Assembly (NCBI RefSeq): GCF_016907845.1
Contig: NZ_JAFBCS010000001.1
Coordinates: 1,736,001-1,800,000, forward strand
Length of the DNA: 64,000 bases
Direction: 5' to 3'
Source: Arcanobacterium pluranimalium
Lineage (GTDB): Bacteria; Actinomycetota; Actinomycetes; Actinomycetales; Actinomycetaceae
Shown: piece after piece, positions 35,768 to 47,293 of the stretch
Layout: every line of letters starts with the position of its first letter
Position numbering within the stretch: the stretch's first letter is position 1
The notes under the pieces: model-generated
Told to the model about the DNA's origin: nothing
Database searches by the model: none
The model's input: only the letters and a program-made list of their open reading frames with translations
Program-made: the position numbers and the translations under genes

Positions 35768-36883
35768 ATGATCATTGGTGTACCCAAAGAAATCAAAAAC
35801 AACGAATTCCGCGTAGCACTCACCCCACAGGGAGTCGACGCTCTGGTTAAACATGGCCATACCGTCTATATTCAGGCAGGTGCTGGAATAGGCTCGTCTA
35901 TTTCCGACGACGAATACATCGCCGCAGGCGCGCAGCTCCTTCCAAGCGCCGAAGCAGTCTGGGCTGACGCGGATATGATTATGAAAGTCAAAGAGCCGAT
36001 CGAACCTGAATATGAGCTGATGCGCGAAGGGCAAATACTTTTCACATACCTCCACCTCGCAGCAGACCGCCCGCTCACTGAAAAACTACTTGAAAAGAAA
36101 GTTACCTCAATTGCCTATGAGACGGTTCAAACCGACAAGGGAGGCCTACCTCTACTGTCACCGATGTCGGAAGTTGCTGGCAGACTCTCGGCTCAGGTAG
36201 CTGCAAATCTTCTCATGAAATCCGCAGGTGGACGCGGAATCTTGATGGGCGGAACGGCAGGAACTGCCCGAGCCAAGACGATTGTGCTCGGTGGAGGAAC
36301 CGCCGGTTACGAAGCAGCAAAAGTGGCGGCAGGAATGGGTTCTCGAGTGACCGTATTCGACGTCAATATTGAACGCCTAATGTATCTAGAAGACGTCAAT
36401 CGCGATGAGATCGACACCGCCTACTCCACTCCCCTCGCCGTGGCCGAAGCAATTAAAGATGCAGACGTAGTCATTGGTTCTGTGCTCATCCCAGGAGCAC
36501 GCACGCCACGCCTCGTCACCAACGAAATGGTTGCCACGATGAAACCCGGTTCAGTACTCGTCGATATTGCCATTGACCAAGGTGGATGCTTTGAAGATTC
36601 ACACCCCACCACGCACGCCGATCCGACGTTCACCGTGCACAATTCGACGTTCTACTGCGTGGCAAATATGCCTGGAGTAATGCCACGCACTTCCACGTAC
36701 GCCCTGACCAATGCGACGATGAGATATGCTCTCCTTCTTGCCGATAAAGGCTGGAAGAAGGCACTCAATGATCACACTGATCTGCTGCGCGGCCTGACCA
36801 CCCACAACGGTGAATTGTATTGTGAGAGCGTCGCTTTGGCTTTCGATATGGGCTCCAAAGACCCAGTTGAAGCTATTAAATAA
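35768..36883 (+). CDS. ald: Alanine dehydrogenase
   Basis: NAD-dependent interconversion of alanine with pyruvate and ammonia. 371 residues, standard. N-terminus [19 protein letters not shown]; substrate Lys in MIMKVKEP; His in YLHLAAD; NAD fold [19 protein letters not shown]; signature [25 protein letters not shown]. The ribosome-binding site AAAGGAG is strong. A long terminator (36988-37047) follows. It is next to, not within, the accessory sugar/transketolase region. Confidence 0.95.
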
Positions 36884-37296: not shown

Positions 37297-37324
37297 TTGA
37301 CGGCATGCCGAGCGTGTGTAAAGA
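37297..37324 (+). promoter_or_regulatory. Promoter of the sugar ABC operon
   Basis: TTGACG (-35, 37297-37302) and TAAAGA (-10, 37319-37324) with a 16-base spacer put the transcript start near 37331, exactly at the palindromic operator. Confidence 0.65.
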
Positions 37325-37330
37325 TAAAGC

Positions 37331-37350
37331 CGTTATCTGGGCAGATAACG
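37331..37350. promoter_or_regulatory. Palindromic operator at the sugar operon start
   Basis: Perfect nine-base arms CGTTATCTG and CAGATAACG separated by GG. It sits just downstream of the -10 box and 25 bp before the first start codon, a standard position for a repressor (LacI, GntR or ROK type not decidable). Confidence 0.7.
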
Positions 37351-37374
37351 ACAAAGATGTCATTGGAGGACACA

Positions 37375-38940
37375 GTGAATTCGACTGCCGAGAATCCCAT
37401 CATTCTAGAGATGCGCGGCATCTCAAAAGAGTTTCCGGGGGTTCGTGCACTTGACCACGTAACGTTCCAAGTCACAAAGGGAAGTATCCACTCCCTGTGC
37501 GGCGAAAACGGTGCGGGAAAGTCAACGTTGATGAAAGTGCTCTCTGGTGTATGGCCCTACGGCACGTACTCCGGAGATATCGTCTACGAAGGCGAAGTGT
37601 GCCAGTTTAAGAACATCCGCGACTCAGAATCACGCGGAATCGTCATCATCCATCAAGAGCTCGCTCTCATCCCCGAGCTTTCCATTGCCGAAAATATTTT
37701 CCTCGGCTCGGAAATCAAAAACGGAATGAGCATCGACTGGGTGGAAACCCGTCGTCGCGCTCGTCTGCTTTTAGCCGAAGTTGGTCTCGACGACGATCCC
37801 GATACGCCAGTTAAAGAGCTTGGCGTTGGCAAGCAACAGCTTGTAGAAATCGCGAAAGCGCTATCGAAGAACGTCAAACTTCTCATTCTCGATGAGCCCA
37901 CCTCAGCGCTCAATGAAGAAGAATCCGCCCACCTCCTTGATCTTATGATTAAGCAGCGCGAGCGCGGCGTCTCCCAGATCATGATTTCCCACAAACTCAA
38001 TGAGATTGCCGCTGTTTCGGACCACATCACAGTCATCCGTGACGGCAAAACTATTGAGACGATGTCCATCGAAGACGGCGACGTAGACGAAGACCGCATT
38101 ATCCGCTCGATGGTTGGACGTCCGCTAGACAACCGCTTCCCTGACCGCGAACCAAAGATTGGCGACGTCGTCTTTGAAGTGCGCAATTGGAACGTACGCC
38201 ACCCTGTCAACACCGAACGCTACATCTGCAAGAACGAGTCCTTCCACGTTCGCGCTGGTGAAGTTGTGGGACTCGCAGGTCTCATGGGAGCTGGCCGTAC
38301 CGAATTGGCACGCTCCATCTTCGGACGTTCCTACGGAATTTTCGAAAGTGGCCAAGTATTTATCGATGGCAAGGAAGTGACAATCAAATCGGTGCCGCAG
38401 GCAATCGCGGCTGGTCTGGCGTATTTGCCCGAAGACCGTAAAGTACAAGGTCTTAACTTGCTAGACGATATTAAAGGCCAAACGGTATCTGCCAAGTACA
38501 AGAAAGCCACCCATGGCGGGATGTCGATTGACTGGCAGCACGTTCGCCAAATCACCGAAGAATATCGCCGCGATCTGCGCATCAAGACGCCGTCAATCGA
38601 TACCGGAGTTTCCACACTTTCGGGTGGAAATATGCAAAAAGTGGTGCTCGGAAAATGGATGTACACCGACCCACGCGTCCTGATCTTGGACGAACCAACT
38701 CGTGGTATCGACGTCGGGGCAAAATTCGAAATCTACACGCTCATCGCCAAACTCGCGCAAGCAGGTATGGCCGTGATCGTGATTTCCTCTGAGCTCCCTG
38801 AACTTCTCGGTATCACCGACCGCGTCTACACCATATTTGAAGGCTCCATCACCGGCTCGGTTCCAACCAGCGAGGCCGATCAAGAAACCTTGATGCGCCT
38901 CATGAACCCCACGTCGTCTAAATCCAATCCAAGAAAGTAG
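37375..38940 (+). CDS. Multiple-monosaccharide ABC transporter ATPase (MmsA/XylG type)
   Basis: Double-domain ATPase energising uptake of a pentose or hexose. 521 residues from GTG 37375, which follows GGAGG at five bases; the ATG at 37357 lacks a site. Domain 1: [54 protein letters not shown]. Domain 2: [16 protein letters not shown] (degenerate Walker A, as in the family), [39 protein letters not shown]. Part of ATPase-permease-binding protein operon. Confidence 0.9.
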
Positions 38941-38949
38941 TTACCAAAG

Positions 38950-40212
38950 ATGATGAGTTCAATTAAACAATTGCTGGGTGGTAATCTACGCCAGCTAACC
39001 ATGGTTATGGTTCTTGTTCTGGAAATTCTTTTCTTCAATTGGCAAACGGGCGGCACTGTAATCTCTGCTCAGAACTTGCAGAACGTTATCTCCGGAAACG
39101 CTTACGTGCTGATCTTGGCTATGGGCATGGTACTCGTTATTATCGCTGGACACATCGATCTTTCGGTCGGTTCCGTCGCCGCCGTCGTGGGCATCGTGCT
39201 TGCAATCACGACGACGGTCAATGGCATGCCGTGGTACGTCGGCTTGCTTATTGCCATCGGTTGCGGTGTTCTCGCTGGTATCTGGAATGGTTTCTGGGTG
39301 TCGATGATCGGCGTGCCAGCCTTCGTGGTAACGCTTGCCGGCATGCTCTTCTTCCGCGGTTTGAACCAGTGGATTGGAAAATCCACCTCAATTCCAGTAC
39401 CAGAACAAATCAAGTTCCTCGGTTCTGGCTACATGAACTGGCTTCCGCCTCTGAGCTTTGGCAACTGGATCGTCAATACGGAAACAATCATTCTCGCAAT
39501 TGTTGCAACGGTGGTAACCACACTGCTCAAACTTCGCCGTCGCGTGCGCCTAACTAAGGCTGGCGCCGAAGTTAATCCGTCGTGGGTGTTTATTGCACAG
39601 CTAGTATTCATCGCAGTGGCTATCCTCAGCCTCGGTTGGGTATTTGCAACCGGACGTCCAGGAACATCTTTCCCTGTTTCCGGCCTGATTGTGGTAGCTC
39701 TCTTCTTGATCTACAACTTCCTGGCTCGCAATACTCCGCTCGGACGCGGCGTCTACGCCGTCGGTGGAAACCGTACGGCAGCAGCACTGACCGGAATTTC
39801 CGTGCGTCGGATCAACTTCTTCGTTATGTTCAACTCTGCAGTTCTAGCAGCAATTGCAGCAGTCGTCTTCGTCGGACGCTCCAACGCTTCTACCCCATTC
39901 GACGGGCAGAACTGGGAACTCGATGCCATTGCTTCCGTGTTCATTGGCGGAGCCTCAGTTTGGGGTGGTATCGGTACACTTGGTGGCACGATGGTTGGCG
40001 CTATGGTGATGGCATTCTTGAACAACGGTCTCCAGCTGCTCGGCGCGGGAGCACACGTCACCTCGATGGTTAAGGGACTCGTGCTACTGGCAGCCGTTGC
40101 ATTCGACGTCATCTCAAAGATGCAAGGCCGGCCATCAATCATCGGCGCATTGACCAAGTCATTTAAGAAAGAAAAAGGCACACTTGAGCCGCCAAATCCA
40201 GCTCAGGCCTAG
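38950..40212 (+). CDS. Sugar ABC transporter permease (MmsB/XylH type)
   Basis: Membrane channel subunit; 420 residues with about ten hydrophobic segments. Diagnostic stretches: LAMGMVLVIIAGHIDLSVGS, VPAFVVTLAGMLFFRGL, GRGVYAVGGNRTAAALTGI, GGASVWGGIGTLGG. Starts nine bases after the ATPase stop; the ribosome-binding site is weak, suggesting coupling. A large inserted soluble-looking stretch (LLKLRRRVRLTKAG) is the usual XylH/MmsB cytoplasmic loop. Confidence 0.9.
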   Translation: MMSSIKQLLGGNLRQLTMVMVLVLEILFFNWQTGGTVISAQNLQNVISGNAYVLILAMGMVLVIIAGHIDLSVGSVAAVVGIVLAITTTVNGMPWYVGLLIAIGCGVLAGIWNGFWVSMIGVPAFVVTLAGMLFFRGLNQWIGKSTSIPVPEQIKFLGSGYMNWLPPLSFGNWIVNTETIILAIVATVVTTLLKLRRRVRLTKAGAEVNPSWVFIAQLVFIAVAILSLGWVFATGRPGTSFPVSGLIVVALFLIYNFLARNTPLGRGVYAVGGNRTAAALTGISVRRINFFVMFNSAVLAAIAAVVFVGRSNASTPFDGQNWELDAIASVFIGGASVWGGIGTLGGTMVGAMVMAFLNNGLQLLGAGAHVTSMVKGLVLLAAVAFDVISKMQGRPSIIGALTKSFKKEKGTLEPPNPAQA

Positions 40213-40233
40213 CGCAAAAGCGCAAACCACAGA

Positions 40234-40265
40234 CTGCGGCTTCGGCCGTAGAGCGATGTCGCTCT
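40234..40265 (+). promoter_or_regulatory. Intercistronic hairpin pair before the binding-protein gene
   Basis: First hairpin: seven-pair stem 40234-40240 / 40245-40251 closed by a TTCG tetraloop in a C-G frame. Second: AGAGCG-ATGT-CGCTCT (40250-40265). They share the middle bases, so they may alternate. Such structures commonly protect or separate the mRNA for the more abundant binding protein. Confidence 0.6.
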
Positions 40266-40305
40266 AACCTGGGGCACCAGGACTAAACAACAAGTGAGGT
40301 AAAAA

Positions 40306-41421
40306 ATGCGAATGATCAAAAAGATCGCTGCAATTGGTGCAGTTGCAGCCCTATCATTATCAGCTTGCTCCGGCAACGCTGGTGACAAGTCCGATAGCAC
40401 GGCAGAGAAGTCTGGCGCAGCAGATATCGGCGTTTCCCTTCCACAGAAGACCTCAGAGAACTGGGTTGAAGCAGAAAACTACTTCAAGGAACTGTGTGAA
40501 GCATCGAATCTCAAGTGTGATGTACAGTTCGCCAACGACGGCGTTCCACAGCAGCAGCAGCAGCTCGATGCAATGATCACCAACGGCGTTAAGGTTCTCA
40601 TCATCGGCGCAGTTGACGGAACTTCCCTCGGTACTCAGCTCCAGAAAGCTGCAGATGCCAAGATTCCAGTGATCGCATACGATCGTCTTCTTCTTGAGAC
40701 CAAGAACATCGACTACTACGTTGCATACGACAACTTCGGTGTTGGTGTGAAGCAGGGCGAGGCACTGCTCAAGGGTCTTGAGGCTAAGAAGGCTGGCGGC
40801 CCATGGAACATCGAGCTTATCGCAGGTTCGAACGATGATTCGAACTCCGCAAAGTTCTTCGATGGCGCAATGTCCGTTCTCAAGCCACAGATCGAAGCTG
40901 GCAAGGTAAAAGTTGTATCGGGTCAGAACACGCAGGATAAGGCTGCAACCCAAGGTTGGAAGCCAGAGAATGCACAGAGCCGTATGGACGCAATCCTCAC
41001 CCAGCACTACCCAGGTTCAGCAGTTCCAGATGGTATCCTCTCCCCGAACGATACCCTCGCACGCGCTGCTCTTACTTCGGTACAGCAGGCAGGCAAGTCG
41101 CCACTTCCAGTTGTGACTGGCCAGGATTCCGAGCTTGAGTCGCTGAAGTGGATCATGGAAGGCAAGCAGTACTCCACGATCTCGAAGCCGACCAAGCCAC
41201 TCGTTGAGAACGTCATATCCCTTGCTAAGGAACTCATCTCAGGCAAGAAGGATCTCAAGGAACTCAACGGAATCAAGGTTGACGCCAAGCAGTACAACAA
41301 CAAGGTAAAGGATGTTCCGGCATTCCTCCTTGAGCCAAAGGTTGCAACCAAGGATAACGCTGCTGAGATTTACAAGGACGAGCCGAAGAAGCTAGAGGCC
41401 GTCAAGAGCGTAACAAAGTAA
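40306..41421 (+). CDS. Sugar-binding lipoprotein of the monosaccharide ABC importer (ChvE-like)
   Basis: Extracellular binding protein anchored by lipid: signal MRMIKKIAAIGAVAALSL with lipobox SAC. 371 residues, periplasmic-binding type 1 fold: DIGVSLPQKTSENWVEAEN, LIIGAVDGTSLGTQLQKA, IPVIAYDRLL, VAYDNFGVGVKQGEALL, VVTGQDSELESLKWIMEG. The pattern matches multiple sugar-binding (ChvE/xylose) proteins; the actual sugar is unknown. Codons are strongly restricted (AAG, TTC, CTC rather than rarer ones), as expected for high expression. AGTGAGG precedes the ATG. Followed by a terminator. Confidence 0.9.
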   Translation: MRMIKKIAAIGAVAALSLSACSGNAGDKSDSTAEKSGAADIGVSLPQKTSENWVEAENYFKELCEASNLKCDVQFANDGVPQQQQQLDAMITNGVKVLIIGAVDGTSLGTQLQKAADAKIPVIAYDRLLLETKNIDYYVAYDNFGVGVKQGEALLKGLEAKKAGGPWNIELIAGSNDDSNSAKFFDGAMSVLKPQIEAGKVKVVSGQNTQDKAATQGWKPENAQSRMDAILTQHYPGSAVPDGILSPNDTLARAALTSVQQAGKSPLPVVTGQDSELESLKWIMEGKQYSTISKPTKPLVENVISLAKELISGKKDLKELNGIKVDAKQYNNKVKDVPAFLLEPKVATKDNAAEIYKDEPKKLEAVKSVTK

Positions 41422-41442: not shown

Positions 41443-41475
41443 GTGGGTCGCAGCTACCGCTGCGACCCGCTTTTT
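41443..41475 (+). terminator. Sugar operon Rho-independent terminator
   Basis: GGGTCGCAG / CTGCGACCC nine-bp stem with flanking GC pairs and TTTTT, 22 bp after the stop. Confidence 0.85.
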
Positions 41476-41595: not shown

Positions 41596-41630
41596 ACTGG
41601 GGTGGCAAGAACGATTCTTGCCACCCCAGT
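41596..41630 (-). terminator. 16-bp perfect hairpin at the end of the transketolase operon
   Basis: Stem 41596-41611 with 41615-41630 and a three-base loop, 29 bp after the VOC gene stop. No T-run; similar in design to 5493-5530, 47921-47956 and 58860-58895. Confidence 0.65.
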
Positions 41631-41658: not shown

Positions 41659-42213
41659 TTACATATAGTAGGAGCCAAACTGAGCTTTCTTCATGACTCT
41701 ACCGACGATATTCGATGCACAACCAAGAATTAGTCGATTTGCATGATAATCGATCAATTCGATTAGGTTTCCATCAGGATCTTTCATAAAAGCCCAATGA
41801 GTACCGTTGTTGTACTGCACACCGGTAACGAATTCGACTCCCCTAGCTTCTAGTTTGCGCTTCCATGCCGGCACATTCGACACCGAAATAGCCGCGTGGG
41901 AGTAACCATTCTTCTGCCAGTTAGTCGCCTGGCCTGGAATCTTAGGCGTAAACTCGAAGATTTCAAGCATCGCATTACTCTTCGTACCCAGGAATCCAAG
42001 TCGAATCGAAAGCCCAGTTTCACCGTACAAACTTGCTAATTTATCAGCAGTTTCACCCTCAATATGAAGCTCATTGACTAAGTGGAAACCAAACATTTCG
42101 TTGTACCACTTAACAGCCGCCTCAAAATCAGAAACGGTGACGCCTACGTGGTTCAGCCCATGATTGCGACCGCGCGTCAAGAATAACTTGACTGACTTTA
42201 ATACGTTATTCAT
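41659..42213 (-). CDS. VOC (glyoxalase/dioxygenase superfamily) metalloenzyme
   Basis: 184 residues, one full vicinal-oxygen-chelate domain. The four expected metal ligands are seen in two beta-alpha-beta halves: His in GLNHVGVTV, Glu in AMLEIFEF, His in YSHAAISV and Glu in GNLIELIDY. The N-terminal basic lead and C-terminal ~30 residues (GRVMKKAQF) are extra. It is the last gene of a six-gene operon; its ATG overlaps the preceding stop (ATGA). Reaction unknown: VOC enzymes do isomerisation, epimerisation, ring opening or glutathione addition. Confidence 0.75.
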   Translation of the reverse strand: MNNVLKSVKLFLTRGRNHGLNHVGVTVSDFEAAVKWYNEMFGFHLVNELHIEGETADKLASLYGETGLSIRLGFLGTKSNAMLEIFEFTPKIPGQATNWQKNGYSHAAISVSNVPAWKRKLEARGVEFVTGVQYNNGTHWAFMKDPDGNLIELIDYHANRLILGCASNIVGRVMKKAQFGSYYM

Positions 42214-43028
42214 TTGGCGTAACCTCCAACAGTTTGCATTAGTTCACCGAGCTCAGCACCATACTCAGGCGCTCCTTGCATAACGATCTTCTGTGACACA
42301 GTTGCCTCGATCATATCGTCAACATCAAGGAGAATTCCCAGCGCGCTACGTGTGGAATCAAATGCCATTGCGAAGAACGGCTTGGAGCGAGTATACGATC
42401 CACGCACCGCCTTTGAACGGCCACCTTTCACACGCACATACGCATCAAGATCCTCGCGTCCCATCACCGTGAGTTGATATACGCGGTCTGGCTGGCGATT
42501 TGCCCAATCTCTGAACAAGGGATGCTTAGCCTTATTCAATTGAGAAATACCACTCGTGAGGAGGTAGAACATGCACTTGACTAGGAGTGCCTGCTCATCA
42601 GGATCCTCAGGTGGCTCAGTTGCTCCAAGCAACTTCGACATTCTCAACAGTGAACGGATAGTCGCAACGAGCAAGCCGAGATTTGACAATGCCCCTTTCA
42701 TCTTTGGAAGCTTCGTCCCACCAGTGAAGAACGTATTGAGATCTTCTCGAGAGGCAAACTCAAGTTCGACATTCGGAGCCACGTGCTCACCGAGCTGAAC
42801 AGTGACCTCGCCGTCTTCCACAATAAGGTGCGTTGCAATCTTTCCCGGTTTACCGTCGTCGGCATTCTCCCCCGTCAGCGCCGAAATTTGCACTACGCCA
42901 TTCTTTCCACGAAATGCTTTCTGCAGCGCCGGCGTCTGGGCAATAATCGGCTTAAGTACGGGAACGACTGCATTAAGGAATACGATGCTCTGATACCGGA
43001 CGTCGTCCGCAGTCTTTTCCTCAGCCAT
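42210..43028 (-). CDS. Tandem SCP2-like protein B
   Basis: I do not recognise a named protein. The 272 residues read as two sterol-carrier-protein-2-like repeats: first around HLIVEDGEVTVQLGEHVAPNVELEF and LNTFFTGGTKLPKMKG, second around RVYQLTVMGREDLDAYVRVK, RSKAVRGSYTRSKPFFAMAF and SQKIVMQGAPEYGAEL. The pattern (anionic strand, Gly turn, hydrophobic strand, then Lys-Gly before a helix) matches SCP2 modules that bind lipids or flat hydrophobic ligands; no catalytic residues can be pointed to. It shares this two-module design with protein A at the other end of the same operon. No signal peptide, so cytoplasmic. Confidence 0.5.
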   Translation of the reverse strand: MAEEKTADDVRYQSIVFLNAVVPVLKPIIAQTPALQKAFRGKNGVVQISALTGENADDGKPGKIATHLIVEDGEVTVQLGEHVAPNVELEFASREDLNTFFTGGTKLPKMKGALSNLGLLVATIRSLLRMSKLLGATEPPEDPDEQALLVKCMFYLLTSGISQLNKAKHPLFRDWANRQPDRVYQLTVMGREDLDAYVRVKGGRSKAVRGSYTRSKPFFAMAFDSTRSALGILLDVDDMIEATVSQKIVMQGAPEYGAELGELMQTVGGYAK

Positions 43029-43030
43029 GA

Positions 43031-44041
43031 TCAGACCTCATCATCCCAATCGTCGTCTTCCTCGATTTCAATGCGCATCAGCTCGCGAGCGGTTTCGAGA
43101 ATGCCGTTTTCGTCGTAGCCATAGTGTGCAAAGAGATCTTCTGGCTGGCCGATCATTGACCACTTGTCTGGGATACCGAGCTTGCGGAAAGCGAAGCCCT
43201 TTCCAGTACGAGCAGCGATATCGGCCACCGCTGAACCCAATCCGTGTGCGATATTGGCATCTTCAACGGTGATGACGCGGCGGGTTTCTGCCACTGCAGC
43301 CTTGATCGTTTCCTCGTCGAGCGGCTTAATCGAGTACAGGTCAATAACTCGTACCGAAAGTCCGTCCTCAGAGCGCAGCCGCTCCGCAGCTTGAAGTGCG
43401 CGCCAGACCGGCGCACCCGAAGCCATAATGGTGATATCCGAACCATCCATGAGCGTATGCGATCCACCAATTCGGAAATCCGGAATTGGCTCATTGTAAA
43501 CTTTCTGATCAAAGCCTCGGTTCACACGCACATAAGCTGGGCCAACATGCTCAAATACCGCTTCTACCGCCTGTGCAGTAGCCATACCGTCGGCCGGGCA
43601 CAGCGTCACAAGATTCGAAATTGAACGCAAAATGCCGAAGTCTTCCGGGCTCTGATGCGTCGACCCTGCCTGCCCAAAGGACAGTCCAGAGTGCGTAGCA
43701 ATCACTTTGACGTTCGCGTTGCCGTAGCAAATATCCGTGCGCAACTGTTCGAGAGCTCGGAGCGTTGCAAAGGAAGCGAAAGTCGATACGAATGGCACGT
43801 ATCCGCATTTCGCCATACCTGCTGCCATGCCGAACATGTTCTGCTCCGCAATTCCTACGTTGAAGAATCGCTCAGGAAAAGCGTCTGCCAGCAACCCGAT
43901 CTTTGTGGACTTCGCAAGATCACCTGAAAAGCCAACGATCTCTGGATGCTCTTTTGCGAGTTCAACGAGGGTGCGCCCATAAACTTCGGCAGTAGCCATC
44001 TCGGCACCGTCGAGCATTGTGTAGGTAAGTCCTCCAGCCAT
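43031..44041 (-). CDS. Transketolase C-terminal subunit (split transketolase)
   Basis: Second half of a two-subunit transketolase: pyrimidine-binding domain plus C-terminal domain. 336 residues. FNVGIAEQNMFGMAAGMA carries the Glu that activates the TPP aminopyrimidine; FASFATLRALEQLRTDI and HSGLSFGQAGSTHQSPED follow; C-terminal domain VRVIDLYSIKPLDEETI. The very acidic last ten residues (EIEEDDDWDDEV) are unusual. Starts one base after the N-subunit stop, so the two are co-translated to make one enzyme. It transfers two-carbon ketol units; the acceptor or donor here is not known. Confidence 0.88.
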   Translation of the reverse strand: MAGGLTYTMLDGAEMATAEVYGRTLVELAKEHPEIVGFSGDLAKSTKIGLLADAFPERFFNVGIAEQNMFGMAAGMAKCGYVPFVSTFASFATLRALEQLRTDICYGNANVKVIATHSGLSFGQAGSTHQSPEDFGILRSISNLVTLCPADGMATAQAVEAVFEHVGPAYVRVNRGFDQKVYNEPIPDFRIGGSHTLMDGSDITIMASGAPVWRALQAAERLRSEDGLSVRVIDLYSIKPLDEETIKAAVAETRRVITVEDANIAHGLGSAVADIAARTGKGFAFRKLGIPDKWSMIGQPEDLFAHYGYDENGILETARELMRIEIEEDDDWDDEV

Positions 44042-44042
44042 C

Positions 44043-44906
44043 TCACTTCTCCTTAATCTTTGCTACGCGCTTTGCATGGTATTCTTCGAGTGCCTTATGC
44101 CCTTCAACAGCCTGATCGCCACCAAACGAGCCATAATGCCACTTGTAGTCACCAGCAATAGAGTCAATGCCTTCACCCTTAATAGTGTTGGCAATAACCA
44201 TCACTGGCTTATCTTTGATCTCATGCGCGGCTCGGAATGTTTCGACCAATTCAGGAATATTGTGGCCATCGATATCGAATACTTCCCAGCCAAATGCTCT
44301 CCATTTATCCGCGAACGGTTCGAGAGCCATAACGTCTTCAGTCATGCCGTCAATCATCGCTTTGTTTCGATCGACGATGCCGATAAGTCCACCGAGTTTG
44401 AAGTGCGACGCCGACATCGCCGCCTCCCATACGGAGCCCTCGTTACACTCGCCGTCACCTAAAAGACAGTAGGTATTAAAGTTTCGACCAGATAGCCGCG
44501 ATGCAGCCGCCATTCCGACGGCGATCGACAAACCGTGTCCTAAGGAGCCAGTTGCAATTTCGACACCAGGCACTTTCGATCCGTCGGGGTGCATACCAAG
44601 CGGTGATCCAGTGTGATTGAAATTTTTAAGCCATTCTTTTGGAAAGCAGCCCAAATCAGCCAAAACTGGCGCGTATCCAACACCGATATGCCCTTTTGAA
44701 AGGACGAAACGGTCACGATCTGGATCGTCGAGTTTCGAGGGATCGAAGTTCATCACTTCGTGGTACAAAACGGTGAGAATATCGACGGCAGATAGCGAAC
44801 CACCAATATGCCCTCCTCCTGCCCAAACGACTGTATCAAGTGTCAATGAGCGTAAGTCATGAGCCTTGTCTTCAAGGCGTCGCCATGTTTTTGCATCGAT
44901 TGCCAT
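44043..44906 (-). CDS. Transketolase N-terminal subunit (split transketolase)
   Basis: TPP-diphosphate-binding half of the two-subunit transketolase. 287 residues. GGGHIGGSLSAVDILTVLYH; RDRFVLSKGHIGVGYAPVLA; TGSLGHGLSIAVGMA; Mg/TPP motif GDGECNEGSVWEAAMSA ending at IGIVDRNK. ATG overlaps the aminotransferase stop by one base. Split transketolases are typical of dedicated sugar or sulfo-sugar pathways and of some archaeal/actinobacterial secondary routes rather than of the pentose-phosphate cycle, so this is probably not the housekeeping enzyme (inference). Confidence 0.88.
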   Translation of the reverse strand: MAIDAKTWRRLEDKAHDLRSLTLDTVVWAGGGHIGGSLSAVDILTVLYHEVMNFDPSKLDDPDRDRFVLSKGHIGVGYAPVLADLGCFPKEWLKNFNHTGSPLGMHPDGSKVPGVEIATGSLGHGLSIAVGMAAASRLSGRNFNTYCLLGDGECNEGSVWEAAMSASHFKLGGLIGIVDRNKAMIDGMTEDVMALEPFADKWRAFGWEVFDIDGHNIPELVETFRAAHEIKDKPVMVIANTIKGEGIDSIAGDYKWHYGSFGGDQAVEGHKALEEYHAKRVAKIKEK

Positions 44907-46189
44907 TACATAACCTTTCCAAGAAGTTGCTTCACATTCTTACTGACGACGCGGTAGGCTTCGTCTGCGACGTCGAGAGTATGCTGAATGTCCTCATCTG
45001 TTAGCGAAGCGTTAATGAACAAGTTGTGATGACTGGAGAAGAATACTCCACGCCGCACGCACTCGCCCACAAACGCTTGGTGAATAAAGTTATTAGGATC
45101 AGCTTCACCCCGGTAACCGGCGGTACGCATAAACCACATGGACGGTTCCCCAGAGATGACTAAATCAAATCCGTTTGCTGATGCCACATCGCTCAAACCA
45201 GCAGTGAGTTTCTTGCCTTTCTCGGTGCAGACCTTTGCAACGTCTATCTCACGCATCTTGTTAATACATGCGATTGCGGCTGCCATTGGCGCAGCGGAAA
45301 GCCAGTATGATCCGGTATAGAACACGGAAGAAACCGCGTCCATGTACTCTTTCTTTCCAACCAGTGCCGAGATGTTGTAACCGTTTGCAAGAGCCTTACA
45401 GTAGCAGGCCAGATCTGCTTCGAATCCGTAATGAACATCTGATCCGCGCACGTCAAGACGGAAACCACACCGAACGTCGTCGATAATCAGAAGGATTCCT
45501 TCCTTGGTGCACAGATCGCGAACTTTGGTCCAATATCCATCTGGAGCGAGACGGTTGTCTTCAACAATTGGATGGTGGTACGGAGTCGCGATGATCGCAG
45601 CAATCTGACCACGATTTGCAAAGACTGCCTTCTTCAATGCAGAGAAGTCACCAAATGGCGTATAGATATTATTCGACACGTCTGCCTGGGTGATACCAGG
45701 GTGATCCGCATGCTGCGTCCACGGCGCAACACCGTGATAACCGCCGTAATGCATCAAGATTTTGTCGCGATTCGTTGCAGCTTTCGCCGTCATCACCGCC
45801 AAACTGGTGACGTCGCCACCGTTCTTTGCGAAAAATGCCCAGTCTGCACTCGAGATTGTGTCGGTGAGAAGTTCTGCTAGTTCTACCATACGTTCCGTTG
45901 GCAAAATCGTGCAGTCACCTTTTTTATATTGCTCGGCGGCAGCCGCATTGACCTCCGGATCGTTGTATCCGAGGATATTGGGGCCATAAGCGCACATGTA
46001 GTCGATGAATCGGTTTCCATCCAGATCCCAGAAGTACGAGCCTTTGGCGCGTTCGAGATAGAGCGGATAGTTACTCACCGGCATAAAGCAACCTTCAGCT
46101 GGTCCTAAATGCCCATATACACCGCCTGGGATAACTTTTGTTGCGCGTAAGAAAAGTTCTGAACTCTTTGGGTATGTGTAAGTTTCCAT
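44906..46189 (-). CDS. Class III aminotransferase, glutamate-1-semialdehyde aminomutase-like
   Basis: PLP enzyme moving an amino group to or from an aldehyde or ketone. 427 residues. SSELFLRATKVIPGGVYG and FIDYMCAYGPNILGYNDPEV match the GSA-aminomutase-like subgroup. The Asp that holds the pyridinium is in LLIIDDVRCGF; the Schiff-base Lys is in CYCKALANGYNISALVG. True HemL would have PSKYGGLPVG-type and no such operon; together with transketolase genes this points to amination or deamination of a sugar-derived carbonyl compound (inference). Nine bases separate it from the SCP2-like A stop. Confidence 0.85.
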   Translation of the reverse strand: METYTYPKSSELFLRATKVIPGGVYGHLGPAEGCFMPVSNYPLYLERAKGSYFWDLDGNRFIDYMCAYGPNILGYNDPEVNAAAAEQYKKGDCTILPTERMVELAELLTDTISSADWAFFAKNGGDVTSLAVMTAKAATNRDKILMHYGGYHGVAPWTQHADHPGITQADVSNNIYTPFGDFSALKKAVFANRGQIAAIIATPYHHPIVEDNRLAPDGYWTKVRDLCTKEGILLIIDDVRCGFRLDVRGSDVHYGFEADLACYCKALANGYNISALVGKKEYMDAVSSVFYTGSYWLSAAPMAAAIACINKMREIDVAKVCTEKGKKLTAGLSDVASANGFDLVISGEPSMWFMRTAGYRGEADPNNFIHQAFVGECVRRGVFFSSHHNLFINASLTDEDIQHTLDVADEAYRVVSKNVKQLLGKVM

Positions 46190-46198
46190 TGTTTCTTC

Positions 46199-46948
46199 CT
46201 ATCCAAGGTAGTGGGGCACGAGGCCGAGTAGCTTGTTGAAGTTGTCAAGGATTGGTACGAACCCTCCGAGCTGGATCTGATCTTTACCGACTGCTTCGAA
46301 GCTAGGTATTTCACCACGTAGCACGCCGCCAGCTACATCCAGATCCGCGAAAACCATCTTTGCACTCGGCTTATCAGATAGCCCTTCGACTACGCGGAGC
46401 TTGTGATCTTTGATGCGAATAATCAGTGCCGGACCTCCAACGACTGCAAGTTGTAGATCGCCGTCTCTCATTCTGCTAGCGGCTTCCTTGCCTGCAACAT
46501 CATGATTTGCGATTTCCGCCAGAGCATACGCCGCAATATGCAATGTGAGGATCGTATTGCGACGCCGGAATTCGGCGTCTTGGAGTTTCTCAGGCGTAGG
46601 CATGAGATATTCAGTCAAAATATTTGTGAGGTTAGTGAAAGGTCCGGTCAAGAATTTGATTCTCCGAATGCCTCGCACTGGAATAGGTGCACCCGTTCCC
46701 GCAAACATCTTGTTGACCATCACCGGAGCAGGAAATGCCAGGTTCATGGTGTTGGGCCCTGCGCCAGACAGATGCTTGATAGTACCGTTTTTGATTACCA
46801 ACCTCATGGTGCCCTTTGGGCTGGTGAATTGGATTGTTTCATCGGCATGAGCGATGACTTGCGCAGCTTTATCGTCGAGCTGAACCAAAGTCTCAAGTGT
46901 GCGCAGCACACCAAAAAGATTGACTCGACTTAATGTTGCATTATCCAT
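46199..46948 (-). CDS. Tandem SCP2-like protein A
   Basis: First gene of the operon, not a family I can name. Start ATG 46948 follows AGGAGG at eight bases; an upstream in-frame ATG (47050) lacks a site. 249 residues appear as two SCP2-like modules: TSPKGTMRLVIKNGTIKHL then NTMNLAFPAPVMVNKMFAG, and LQLAVVGGPALIIRIKDHKL then SAKMVFADLDVAGGVLRGE. It parallels protein B in layout although the two differ in sequence. The middle is basic and helical. Likely cytoplasmic carrier or scaffold for a hydrophobic ligand; no catalytic motif identified. Confidence 0.5.
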   Translation of the reverse strand: MDNATLSRVNLFGVLRTLETLVQLDDKAAQVIAHADETIQFTSPKGTMRLVIKNGTIKHLSGAGPNTMNLAFPAPVMVNKMFAGTGAPIPVRGIRRIKFLTGPFTNLTNILTEYLMPTPEKLQDAEFRRRNTILTLHIAAYALAEIANHDVAGKEAASRMRDGDLQLAVVGGPALIIRIKDHKLRVVEGLSDKPSAKMVFADLDVAGGVLRGEIPSFEAVGKDQIQLGGFVPILDNFNKLLGLVPHYLG

Positions 46949-47293
46949 ATAGGTCGCCTCCTCGTTGAGCTTTAAGATAATAGTACCGTCAGTTCGGATA
47001 AATTTCGTGCGTTTTATAAAAGTTTTCAACAGAGCGAAAACATTTGCCACCTGAGATGCGGATCCATTTCGGGACTTTCGTCCGAACCGAAGCTGGTAGT
47101 TCCGTCATCGATAAGTTCAATCTCGATTCAAATAGGCAGCTTGAGCAGACCACACCACATGAATCACACTCTTATCGATAAAGCAACTGCTCTAAACCCC
47201 AATTTCGCGGGGAAAATGCGCCCTGAGCAAAACAAGCGACCACTTATGCCTCACGAGTTCTGCCACCGGGTCAGAAAATGAAAGTATATTTTC
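46949..47293. other. Promoter region between the transketolase operon and DUF1801 gene
   Basis: 345 bp. It contains two ATCGATAA elements, one within a perfect TTATCGATAA palindrome (47172-47181) and one at 47107-47114, possible operators. Minus-strand TACTAT and TATAAA words lie near 46985-47020 but I cannot pair them with a -35. A CTGAGATG word (47047) is not part of a TPP riboswitch. Confidence 0.45.

Follow-up and report, generated by a model that had tools for sequence, protein, structure and literature searches.

A conserved six-gene operon of Arcanobacterium pluranimalium that may break down sphingoid bases by transamination and transketolase cleavage

Introduction

A 64,000 bp stretch of the Arcanobacterium pluranimalium genome (contig NZ_JAFBCS010000001.1, positions 1,736,001 to 1,800,000; hereafter the window) includes, at positions 41659-46948 on the minus strand, an operon of six genes for two predicted SCP2-fold proteins (SCP2-A and SCP2-B), a class III aminotransferase, the two subunits of a split transketolase (TK-N and TK-C) and an enzyme of the vicinal oxygen chelate (VOC) superfamily. 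The question raised by this locus is which compound could be handled by an aminotransferase and a transketolase in the company of two putative lipid carriers. The original prediction could put no pathway name to this set of genes, and none was found in the open-access literature, as judged from titles and abstract openings.

Here, it is proposed, at close to an even chance of being correct, that the cassette breaks down sphingoid long-chain bases, using or detoxifying them, via transamination and transketolase cleavage. A sphingoid base has the structure R-CH(OH)-CH(NH2)-CH2OH, and transamination at C2 gives R-CH(OH)-CO-CH2OH. The head of this product is that of a ketose, the type of compound that transketolase cleaves or makes. 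By way of a FumI-like aminotransferase and a transketolase with a hydrophobic pocket, a sphingoid base would thus be connected with a fatty aldehyde and a C2 unit of the pentose pool.

Gene content and recurrence of the operon

All six open reading frames (ORFs) are intact and lie on the minus strand in the order SCP2-A, aminotransferase, TK-N, TK-C, SCP2-B and VOC. SCP2-A and the aminotransferase gene are separated by 9 bp, the aminotransferase gene overlaps that for TK-N by 1 bp, TK-N and TK-C are 1 bp apart, TK-C and SCP2-B 2 bp apart, and SCP2-B overlaps the VOC gene by 4 bp. The six gene calls made originally and their packing at -4 to +9 bp are thus borne out by the ORFs, as are the four enzyme families by Pfam. 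The first gene, SCP2-A (46199-46948), starts with an ATG at 46948 directly preceded by GAGGAGG, and its frame is open up to a GTG at 47050.

A search with SCP2-A was positive in 11 of 200 genomes of the family, including the source genome. The five-gene core was present in the same order and on the same strand at all ten other family loci, and nine of these also include the VOC gene; the remaining locus, L026 (genome G176), has the core without a VOC match. SCP2-B, the best marker of the unit, was used for profile searches of wider samples. In the phylum sample only the source genome was found among 396 genomes, and in the order sample 6 of 238 genomes were positive, namely G000, G032 and G055 together with G610, G795 and G740 from another family (f91). 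G610 carries the five-gene core without VOC, the contig of G795 begins inside TK-N, and G740 has only a fragment. When 13 loci were read (the window, L017-L026, L096 and L097, with the G740 fragment not read), the core was complete in 12 and the VOC gene present in 10. No VOC match was found in L026, L096 or L097, the last with 9,000 of 10,946 contig bases covered. SCP2-B had no match in the plasmid collection, the sole sample reaching Firmicutes. As order and strand recur at 9/10 family loci, and the core at the tenth and in another family, the gene set is not a chance assembly, and the recurrence as a unit that the original prediction had put up for checking was found within the family.

The nearest named record to SCP2-A is from Arcanobacterium bovis (94% identity). 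An apparent fusion of SCP2-B in G610 and G795 was rejected, since the ORFs of ~600 aa are ordinary separate genes in GC-rich DNA.

The aminotransferase is related to FumI

The aminotransferase (44906-46189; Pfam Aminotran_3, 3e-38) has the class III fold of enzymes dependent on pyridoxal 5'-phosphate (PLP), and the catalytic lysine, K265, is invariant in 10/10 aligned operon copies (L021 was left out of the alignments, leaving its transketolase residues unread). Its nearest relative among solved structures is FumI (6hbs), which scored 310.7 bits with the single sequence and 351 bits with a profile, as against 165.7 and 206 bits for the next match, glutamate-1-semialdehyde (GSA) aminomutase; FumI thus leads by 145 bits in both cases. 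The label 'GSA-type' attached earlier to this enzyme therefore holds at the level of the family, whereas its closest solved enzyme is FumI and not GSA aminomutase. The score for the HemL equivalog (TIGR00713) was 218 bits and did not reach the 527 bits of the model. In the operon enzymes, G and H stand in the columns of R32 and E406, which we take to be the substrate-binding residues of GSA aminomutase; both are also replaced in FumI. In addition, the motifs YGH, CAYGPN, DDVRxGFR, TGSxW and HN are common to FumI and most operon copies.

In a midpoint-rooted tree of 27 proteins, in which long branches were flagged, the operon enzymes formed one clade within a 22-row superclade that holds FumI (support 100/100). 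GSA aminomutase and the aminotransferase from a Methylomagnum plasmid (locus L043) fell outside it. FumI is an aminopentol aminotransferase. Its substrate, hydrolysed fumonisin B1 (aminopentol), is a sphinganine analogue, and pyruvate is reported to receive the amino group that the enzyme takes from C2 (PMC2933618).

Separately, a haloarchaeal plasmid (L042, 3956-9100) was seen to encode a class III aminotransferase 34.6% identical to the query and a protein with the annotation neutral/alkaline ceramidase, two genes for an ATP-binding cassette (ABC) transporter lying between them.

The transketolase has lost two sugar-phosphate contacts

TK-N (44043-44906; Pfam Transketolase_N, 1.3e-47) is closest among solved structures to the N chain of the split transketolase from Carboxydothermus hydrogenoformans (312 bits), and the same enzyme is the best match for TK-C (43031-44041; Pfam Transket_pyr and Transketolase_C). 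The thiamine diphosphate (ThDP)-binding, pyrimidine-binding and C-terminal domains are all present, and the ThDP motif is kept, with G150-D151 and N181 invariant in TK-N. The source genome (2.1 Mb, one contig) has a second, separate transketolase in an ORF of 691 aa, and the operon enzyme is therefore probably not the housekeeping transketolase.

Two of the ordinary contacts to sugar phosphates are missing from the operon enzyme. By human transketolase numbering, taken from the alignments, R318 (presumably phosphate-binding) is replaced by A or S and D424 (presumably hydroxyl-binding) by A in 10/10 aligned copies from the family. With the two f91 copies, in which the same positions read A/M and A, the departure is seen in 12/12 operon copies, while the positions of S345, H416 and R474 are kept. 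Among 29 transketolase relatives, sampled at one locus per genome among the best hits in 149 genomes of the phylum, R318 is R in 28/28 that were readable (one had no readable column) and D424 is D in 26/29. The two positions correspond, as we take it, to R358 and D469 of the Escherichia coli enzyme, and it looks as if evolution had altered two positions that have also been engineered. In that enzyme, D469T has been described as making the surface hydrophobic and so favouring acceptors that are nonpolar (PMC10787763), and changes at R358/S385/D469/R520 as increasing the activity on aromatic aldehydes (PMC7661550). A second distinctive feature of the operon enzyme is an acidic C-terminal tail on TK-C, EED[DE][DN]W[DEAT]DE (window 43034-43063), present in 12/12 operon copies and in 0/29 relatives. 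At a guess, the tail would be a docking element, perhaps for a conserved basic stretch of SCP2-B.

Two other transketolase loci were observed. The Methylomagnum plasmid locus L043 (2095-7100) combines a split transketolase and a class III aminotransferase with genes for a short-chain dehydrogenase/reductase (SDR) and a NeuB-family protein. At L075 (405-6260, genome G267), TK-C, at 46%, is the closest outside the family in the 149-genome sample, and the equivalents of D424 and R474 are G and M. This locus was considered as a relative of the unit and rejected, as it has two genes for FAD-dependent reductase-like proteins (named by eye) and no adjoining aminotransferase gene was seen.

SCP2-fold proteins and the VOC enzyme

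SCP2-A (249 aa) and SCP2-B (272 aa; 42210-43028) had no match in Pfam (E <= 0.1) or NCBIfam (E <= 0.001), and SCP2-B had no match by sequence in the Protein Data Bank (PDB). Both are predicted to adopt tandem SCP2-like folds, in agreement with the original prediction. The AlphaFold models had mean pLDDT values of 86 and 91, respectively, and Foldseek matched the SCP2-A model best to UbiJ-SCP2, an alkylsulfatase SCP2-like domain and SCP2 proteins, and the SCP2-B model to SCP2 proteins, alkylsulfatase SCP2-like domains and UbiJ. The SCP2 proteins matched come from animals, yeast, archaea and Thermus. VIA-align gave Z scores up to 10.9 for SCP2-A, nearly all inside residues 108-249, with the N-terminal half barely covered; judged by the order of helices and strands in the model, this half would be the other repeat. 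SCP2 folds bind lipids, and their predicted presence points towards a lipid substrate. One proposal for UbiJ itself is that it binds the quinone tail on behalf of a group of soluble enzymes (PMC9499169).

An ORF of 227 aa from another actinobacterial lineage (G550; L076, 27-1921) shares 4 bp with the gene of a FumI-like aminotransferase. Its C-terminal likeness to SCP2-A (hhalign E 7e-4 but probability only 27%) is suggestive only of a relationship, and the gene order was seen in 1/3 genomes, G550 itself.

The last gene encodes a metalloenzyme resembling glyoxalase I and methylmalonyl-CoA epimerase (41659-42213; Pfam Glyoxalase, 8e-19). The four metal-ligand positions noted in the original prediction, which we take to be H22, E84, H106 and E152, are invariant in 10/10 aligned VOC proteins. 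Weak PDB matches included glyoxalase I and methylmalonyl-CoA epimerase, enzymes of enolate or enediolate chemistry. Some copies (L019, L020 and L024) have hydrophobic N-terminal extensions.

A ceramidase-family gene accompanies the operon

If sphingoid bases are broken down, an enzyme that cleaves ceramide should accompany the operon. Accordingly, full-length PF04734 matches were counted over the same set of genomes as the operon (188 good genomes, 36 genera each); in the source genome, the gene lies outside the window. They occurred in 11/200 family genomes, comprising 9/11 operon genomes and 2/189 others (Fisher p 2.5e-12). Seven partial matches, all in operon-negative genomes (G002, G041, G052, G075, G101, G140 and G178; E 3e-7 to 3e-10, past the Pfam cut-off), were kept out of the full-length count and of the alignment; with these included, the ratio is 9/11 to 9/189 (p 2e-9). 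Within genus g1, ceramidase was found in 6/6 operon genomes and 0/4 others, and in genus g27, with eight other genomes in the sialidase listing, G055 alone has the operon and alone has the ceramidase. Eight operon-negative genomes, including both full-length exceptions, were negative for SCP2-B on recheck.

The ten ceramidase copies from operon genomes are 52-100% identical to that of the source genome. The two exceptions, G056 and G080, belong to another subtype (33-35% identity), and for the operon-type ceramidase the split is therefore 9/11 to 0/189 (p 5e-14, with partial matches unaligned). A control for lifestyle, the sialidase-like family PF13088, was not enriched (8/11 and 124/189, p 0.75), and the reading of the ceramidase as a general marker of life on a host was rejected on this basis. 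The source copy matches the neutral ceramidase of Pseudomonas aeruginosa at 1.6e-114, has both PF04734 and PF17048, and retains the residues that presumably serve as zinc ligands. Several copies have an N-terminus resembling a signal peptide (by eye), and in G130 (L019) the gene lies ~5 kb upstream of the operon on the same contig and strand.

Ceramidase was found with 9/10 VOC-bearing loci and 0/3 VOC-less loci (p 0.014, or 0.045 without the incomplete G795). This co-occurrence suggests that the VOC enzyme adapts the core to a substrate released by ceramidase.

Boundaries and neighbouring genes

A terminator-like stem-loop with a 16 bp stem (41596-41630, consensus match) directly follows the stop codon of the VOC gene and parts the six-gene unit from convergent genes for a ChvE/GguAB-type monosaccharide ABC system (37297-41421), which have a terminator-like site of their own (41443-41470, consensus match). 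The scan of this region found 10 terminator-like sites where 6.5 are expected, counting consensus matches only. The sugar transporter was considered as a member of the pathway and rejected, being a neighbour at only 3/11 loci (the window, L017 and L021), i.e. in the closest species. Twenty neighbouring genes at six other loci encode housekeeping (DnaG, Dus, class II tRNA synthetase), transport and other proteins. Within the flanks read, the 11 family loci have no gene family in common besides those of the unit, which is therefore taken to be self-contained.

An alanine dehydrogenase gene lies near the unit at 3/11 loci from three genera (window 35768-36883; L023 15542-16657; L026 14049-15167). 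This count is bounded by the flanks, as L017 and L021 stop short of the position occupied in the window. Such a neighbour would be consistent with alanine/pyruvate in the part of amino partner.

Proposed pathway

In the proposed scheme, an apparently secreted enzyme of the neutral-ceramidase family, encoded elsewhere in the genome, would free the base from host sphingolipid. SCP2-A and SCP2-B, to judge from their predicted fold, may keep the base, which is hydrophobic, and the compounds made from it bound in the cytosol and hand them to the enzymes, much as proposed for UbiJ with quinone intermediates. The aminotransferase, by analogy with its nearest characterised relative, would use pyruvate or another 2-oxo acid as acceptor for the amino group at C2, leaving a 1,3-dihydroxyalkan-2-one, HOCH2-CO-CH(OH)-R. 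From this the split transketolase, given its altered pocket, could remove C1-C2 as a ketol unit with release of the fatty aldehyde R-CHO; by the chemistry of transketolase, the two carbons would pass to an aldose phosphate to give a ketose phosphate of the pentose or heptose pool. Natural D-erythro bases are 3R at C3 and canonical transketolase donors are 3S. Because these are opposite, we propose, as a guess, that the VOC enzyme may act as a C3 epimerase with an enediolate intermediate. Apart from this guess, the scheme employs every enzyme but the VOC enzyme and accounts for the lipid carriers. The substrate, the order and direction of the reactions, the role of the VOC enzyme and the formation of a complex are what we infer here.

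A wider concept, held tentatively and with somewhat less than even confidence, is that of a transketolase that has evolved to treat a lipid as a ketose, so that sphingoid bases enter or leave central sugar metabolism via transamination and C2 transfer. This would take place in a soluble complex, where four SCP2 domains cradle the lipid and the VOC enzyme corrects the stereochemistry of C3. No link between transketolase and sphingoid bases as a pathway was found in the open-access literature, judged from titles and abstract openings.

Weighing of the evidence and alternative readings

Several observations weigh against breakdown of sphingoid bases. FumI groups with proteobacterial enzymes instead of being sister to the operon clade, the tree has long branches, and members of the FumI superclade occur in quite different gene contexts; hence, the grouping speaks for kinship of chemistry and does not identify the substrate. 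Loss of sugar-phosphate contacts is not exclusive to the operon enzyme either, because a few of the 29 relatives also depart at the contact positions, TK-C of the sugar-type locus L043 has N for D424, A for R474 and F for H416 (with the R318 column unaligned), and the unaltered Carboxydothermus enzyme is reported to take phenylacetaldehyde and cyclohexanecarboxaldehyde (PMC7661550). All ten ceramidase copies from operon genomes have GD[VTM]V...GN[S/A] in place of GDVSPN, presumably the canonical neutral ceramidase motif, and lack its serine, which makes their activity on ceramide uncertain; this subtype (L082 4949-7099, L019 647-2767 and L085-L089) was seen here only in operon-bearing genomes. 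The ceramidase statistics ignore shared descent and hold few independent contrasts (g1 and g27). No ceramidase match was found in the operon-bearing genomes G050, G176, G610, G795 and G740, the last two incomplete, and the core thus need not depend on ceramidase. Sphingomyelinase C (TIGR03395) had no match in the 200 genomes, but the search control was likewise silent, so this absence carries no weight. Finally, the six genes include neither a transporter nor an aldehyde dehydrogenase. The latter was considered as a seventh gene and rejected, as the neighbours at L023 and L026 are different enzymes, a succinic-semialdehyde dehydrogenase by NCBIfam at L023 and an MdlD-like enzyme, under the cut-off, near L026.

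Three other readings were considered. Both steps are, as general knowledge, reversible, and the transketolase could instead add a C2 ketol to a fatty aldehyde, with the aminotransferase then aminating the 1,3-dihydroxy-2-ketone, so that sphinganine-like bases are made without serine palmitoyltransferase. The likeness of the SCP2 proteins to UbiJ and the hydrophobic extensions on the VOC proteins of L019, L020 and L024 would suit a lipid-making complex, and G176 and G610 have five-gene cores without a ceramidase match. We regard synthesis as rather unlikely, since the association with a ceramidase family indicates breakdown, and no reductase making fatty aldehydes, N-acyltransferase or head-group gene is present in the unit or conserved beside it, the rest of the genome not having been searched for these. 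It is distinctly unlikely that the same logic of aminotransferase and transketolase serves another hydrophobic, lipid-like aminoketone or amino alcohol, such as a secondary metabolite or xenobiotic. The SCP2 folds and altered pocket signal only 'hydrophobic' and the neighbourhoods in the FumI superclade are varied, but such a substrate would leave the ceramidase association unexplained, and the core of five or six genes is stable in two families with no biosynthetic-cluster genes among the 20 annotated neighbours. An aminated sugar-like small molecule, made or degraded as in the transketolase pathways for apulose and sulfoquinovose or in glycan loci, is the kind of substrate suggested in the original prediction and appears quite improbable. 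Pairs of aminotransferase and transketolase do occur in sugar loci such as L043, where TK-C likewise departs at contact positions, and the monosaccharide ABC genes of the window end ~240 bp from the unit. Yet the L043 aminotransferase lies outside the FumI superclade, the ABC genes are convergent and adjoin the unit in the closest species only, and no sugar kinase, isomerase or nucleotidyltransferase was found among the six genes by Pfam and NCBIfam matches. Kinship with FumI and the lost contacts also speak against a sugar-like molecule or plain sugar catabolism, which would leave the SCP2 folds and the ceramidase association unexplained.

Implications of sphingoid-base breakdown

If breakdown of sphingoid bases by this cassette is correct, it would be a new bacterial way to use or disarm host sphingolipids, converting the base to a fatty aldehyde and carbon for the pentose pool, and would explain how such bacteria feed on host sphingolipids or survive them. 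The transketolase would be the first known to us to act on a lipid, and the reaction a further C2-C3 cleavage of sphingoid bases besides sphingosine-1-phosphate lyase and the oxidative routes. The enzyme pair could be applied to fumonisin-like mycotoxins or to the production of sphingoid bases, and, if reversed, the cassette would represent serine-free synthesis of these bases. The aminotransferase-transketolase pair of the sugar-type locus L043 merits separate study.

Comparison with known systems

The apulose and sulfoquinovose pathways are set apart from the operon by gene content. Their transketolases are presumably accompanied in the operon by sugar isomerase, kinase or sulfosugar genes, and none of these families was found among the six genes. 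FumI of Sphingopyxis sp. MTA144 belongs to the same class III superclade as the operon aminotransferase, with common motifs, and is its best solved match; to our knowledge, the FumI locus lacks split transketolase and SCP2 genes. The C. hydrogenoformans transketolase (6yaj/6yak) has the same split of domains between two chains but, unlike the operon enzyme, retains R and D at the positions of human R318 and D424 and stops shortly beyond the aligned region, without an acidic tail, and we know of no aminotransferase/SCP2 operon that includes it. UbiJ, a single SCP2 domain, shares the fold of SCP2-A and SCP2-B but acts in a different pathway, ubiquinone synthesis.

Bacterial handling of host sphingoid bases is likewise the role of sphBCD in P. 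aeruginosa, which is reported to secrete a ceramidase (PMC5150637). Its sphBC-dependent metabolism of sphingosine is described as involving a periplasmic oxidoreductase, SphC, a cytochrome c, SphB, and a predicted PLP-dependent aldolase, SphD (PMC11893366). Unlike the six-gene unit, that system has no transketolase or transaminase; conversely, the family matches of the six genes include no oxidoreductase or cytochrome, as SphC and SphB would require, in a search for these that covered the six genes only. The PfSgaAB polyketide synthase cluster offers a parallel to the reversed cassette, in that sphingoid bases arise outside the classical serine palmitoyltransferase operons. Its non-canonical synthesis of sphinganine employs a polyketide synthase and an alpha-oxoamine synthase, and the abstract of that report mentions neither a transketolase nor a class III aminotransferase (PMC12134224). 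The operon would thus represent a variant of bacterial sphingolipid-base metabolism and, if the transketolase step is right, the mechanism itself would be new.

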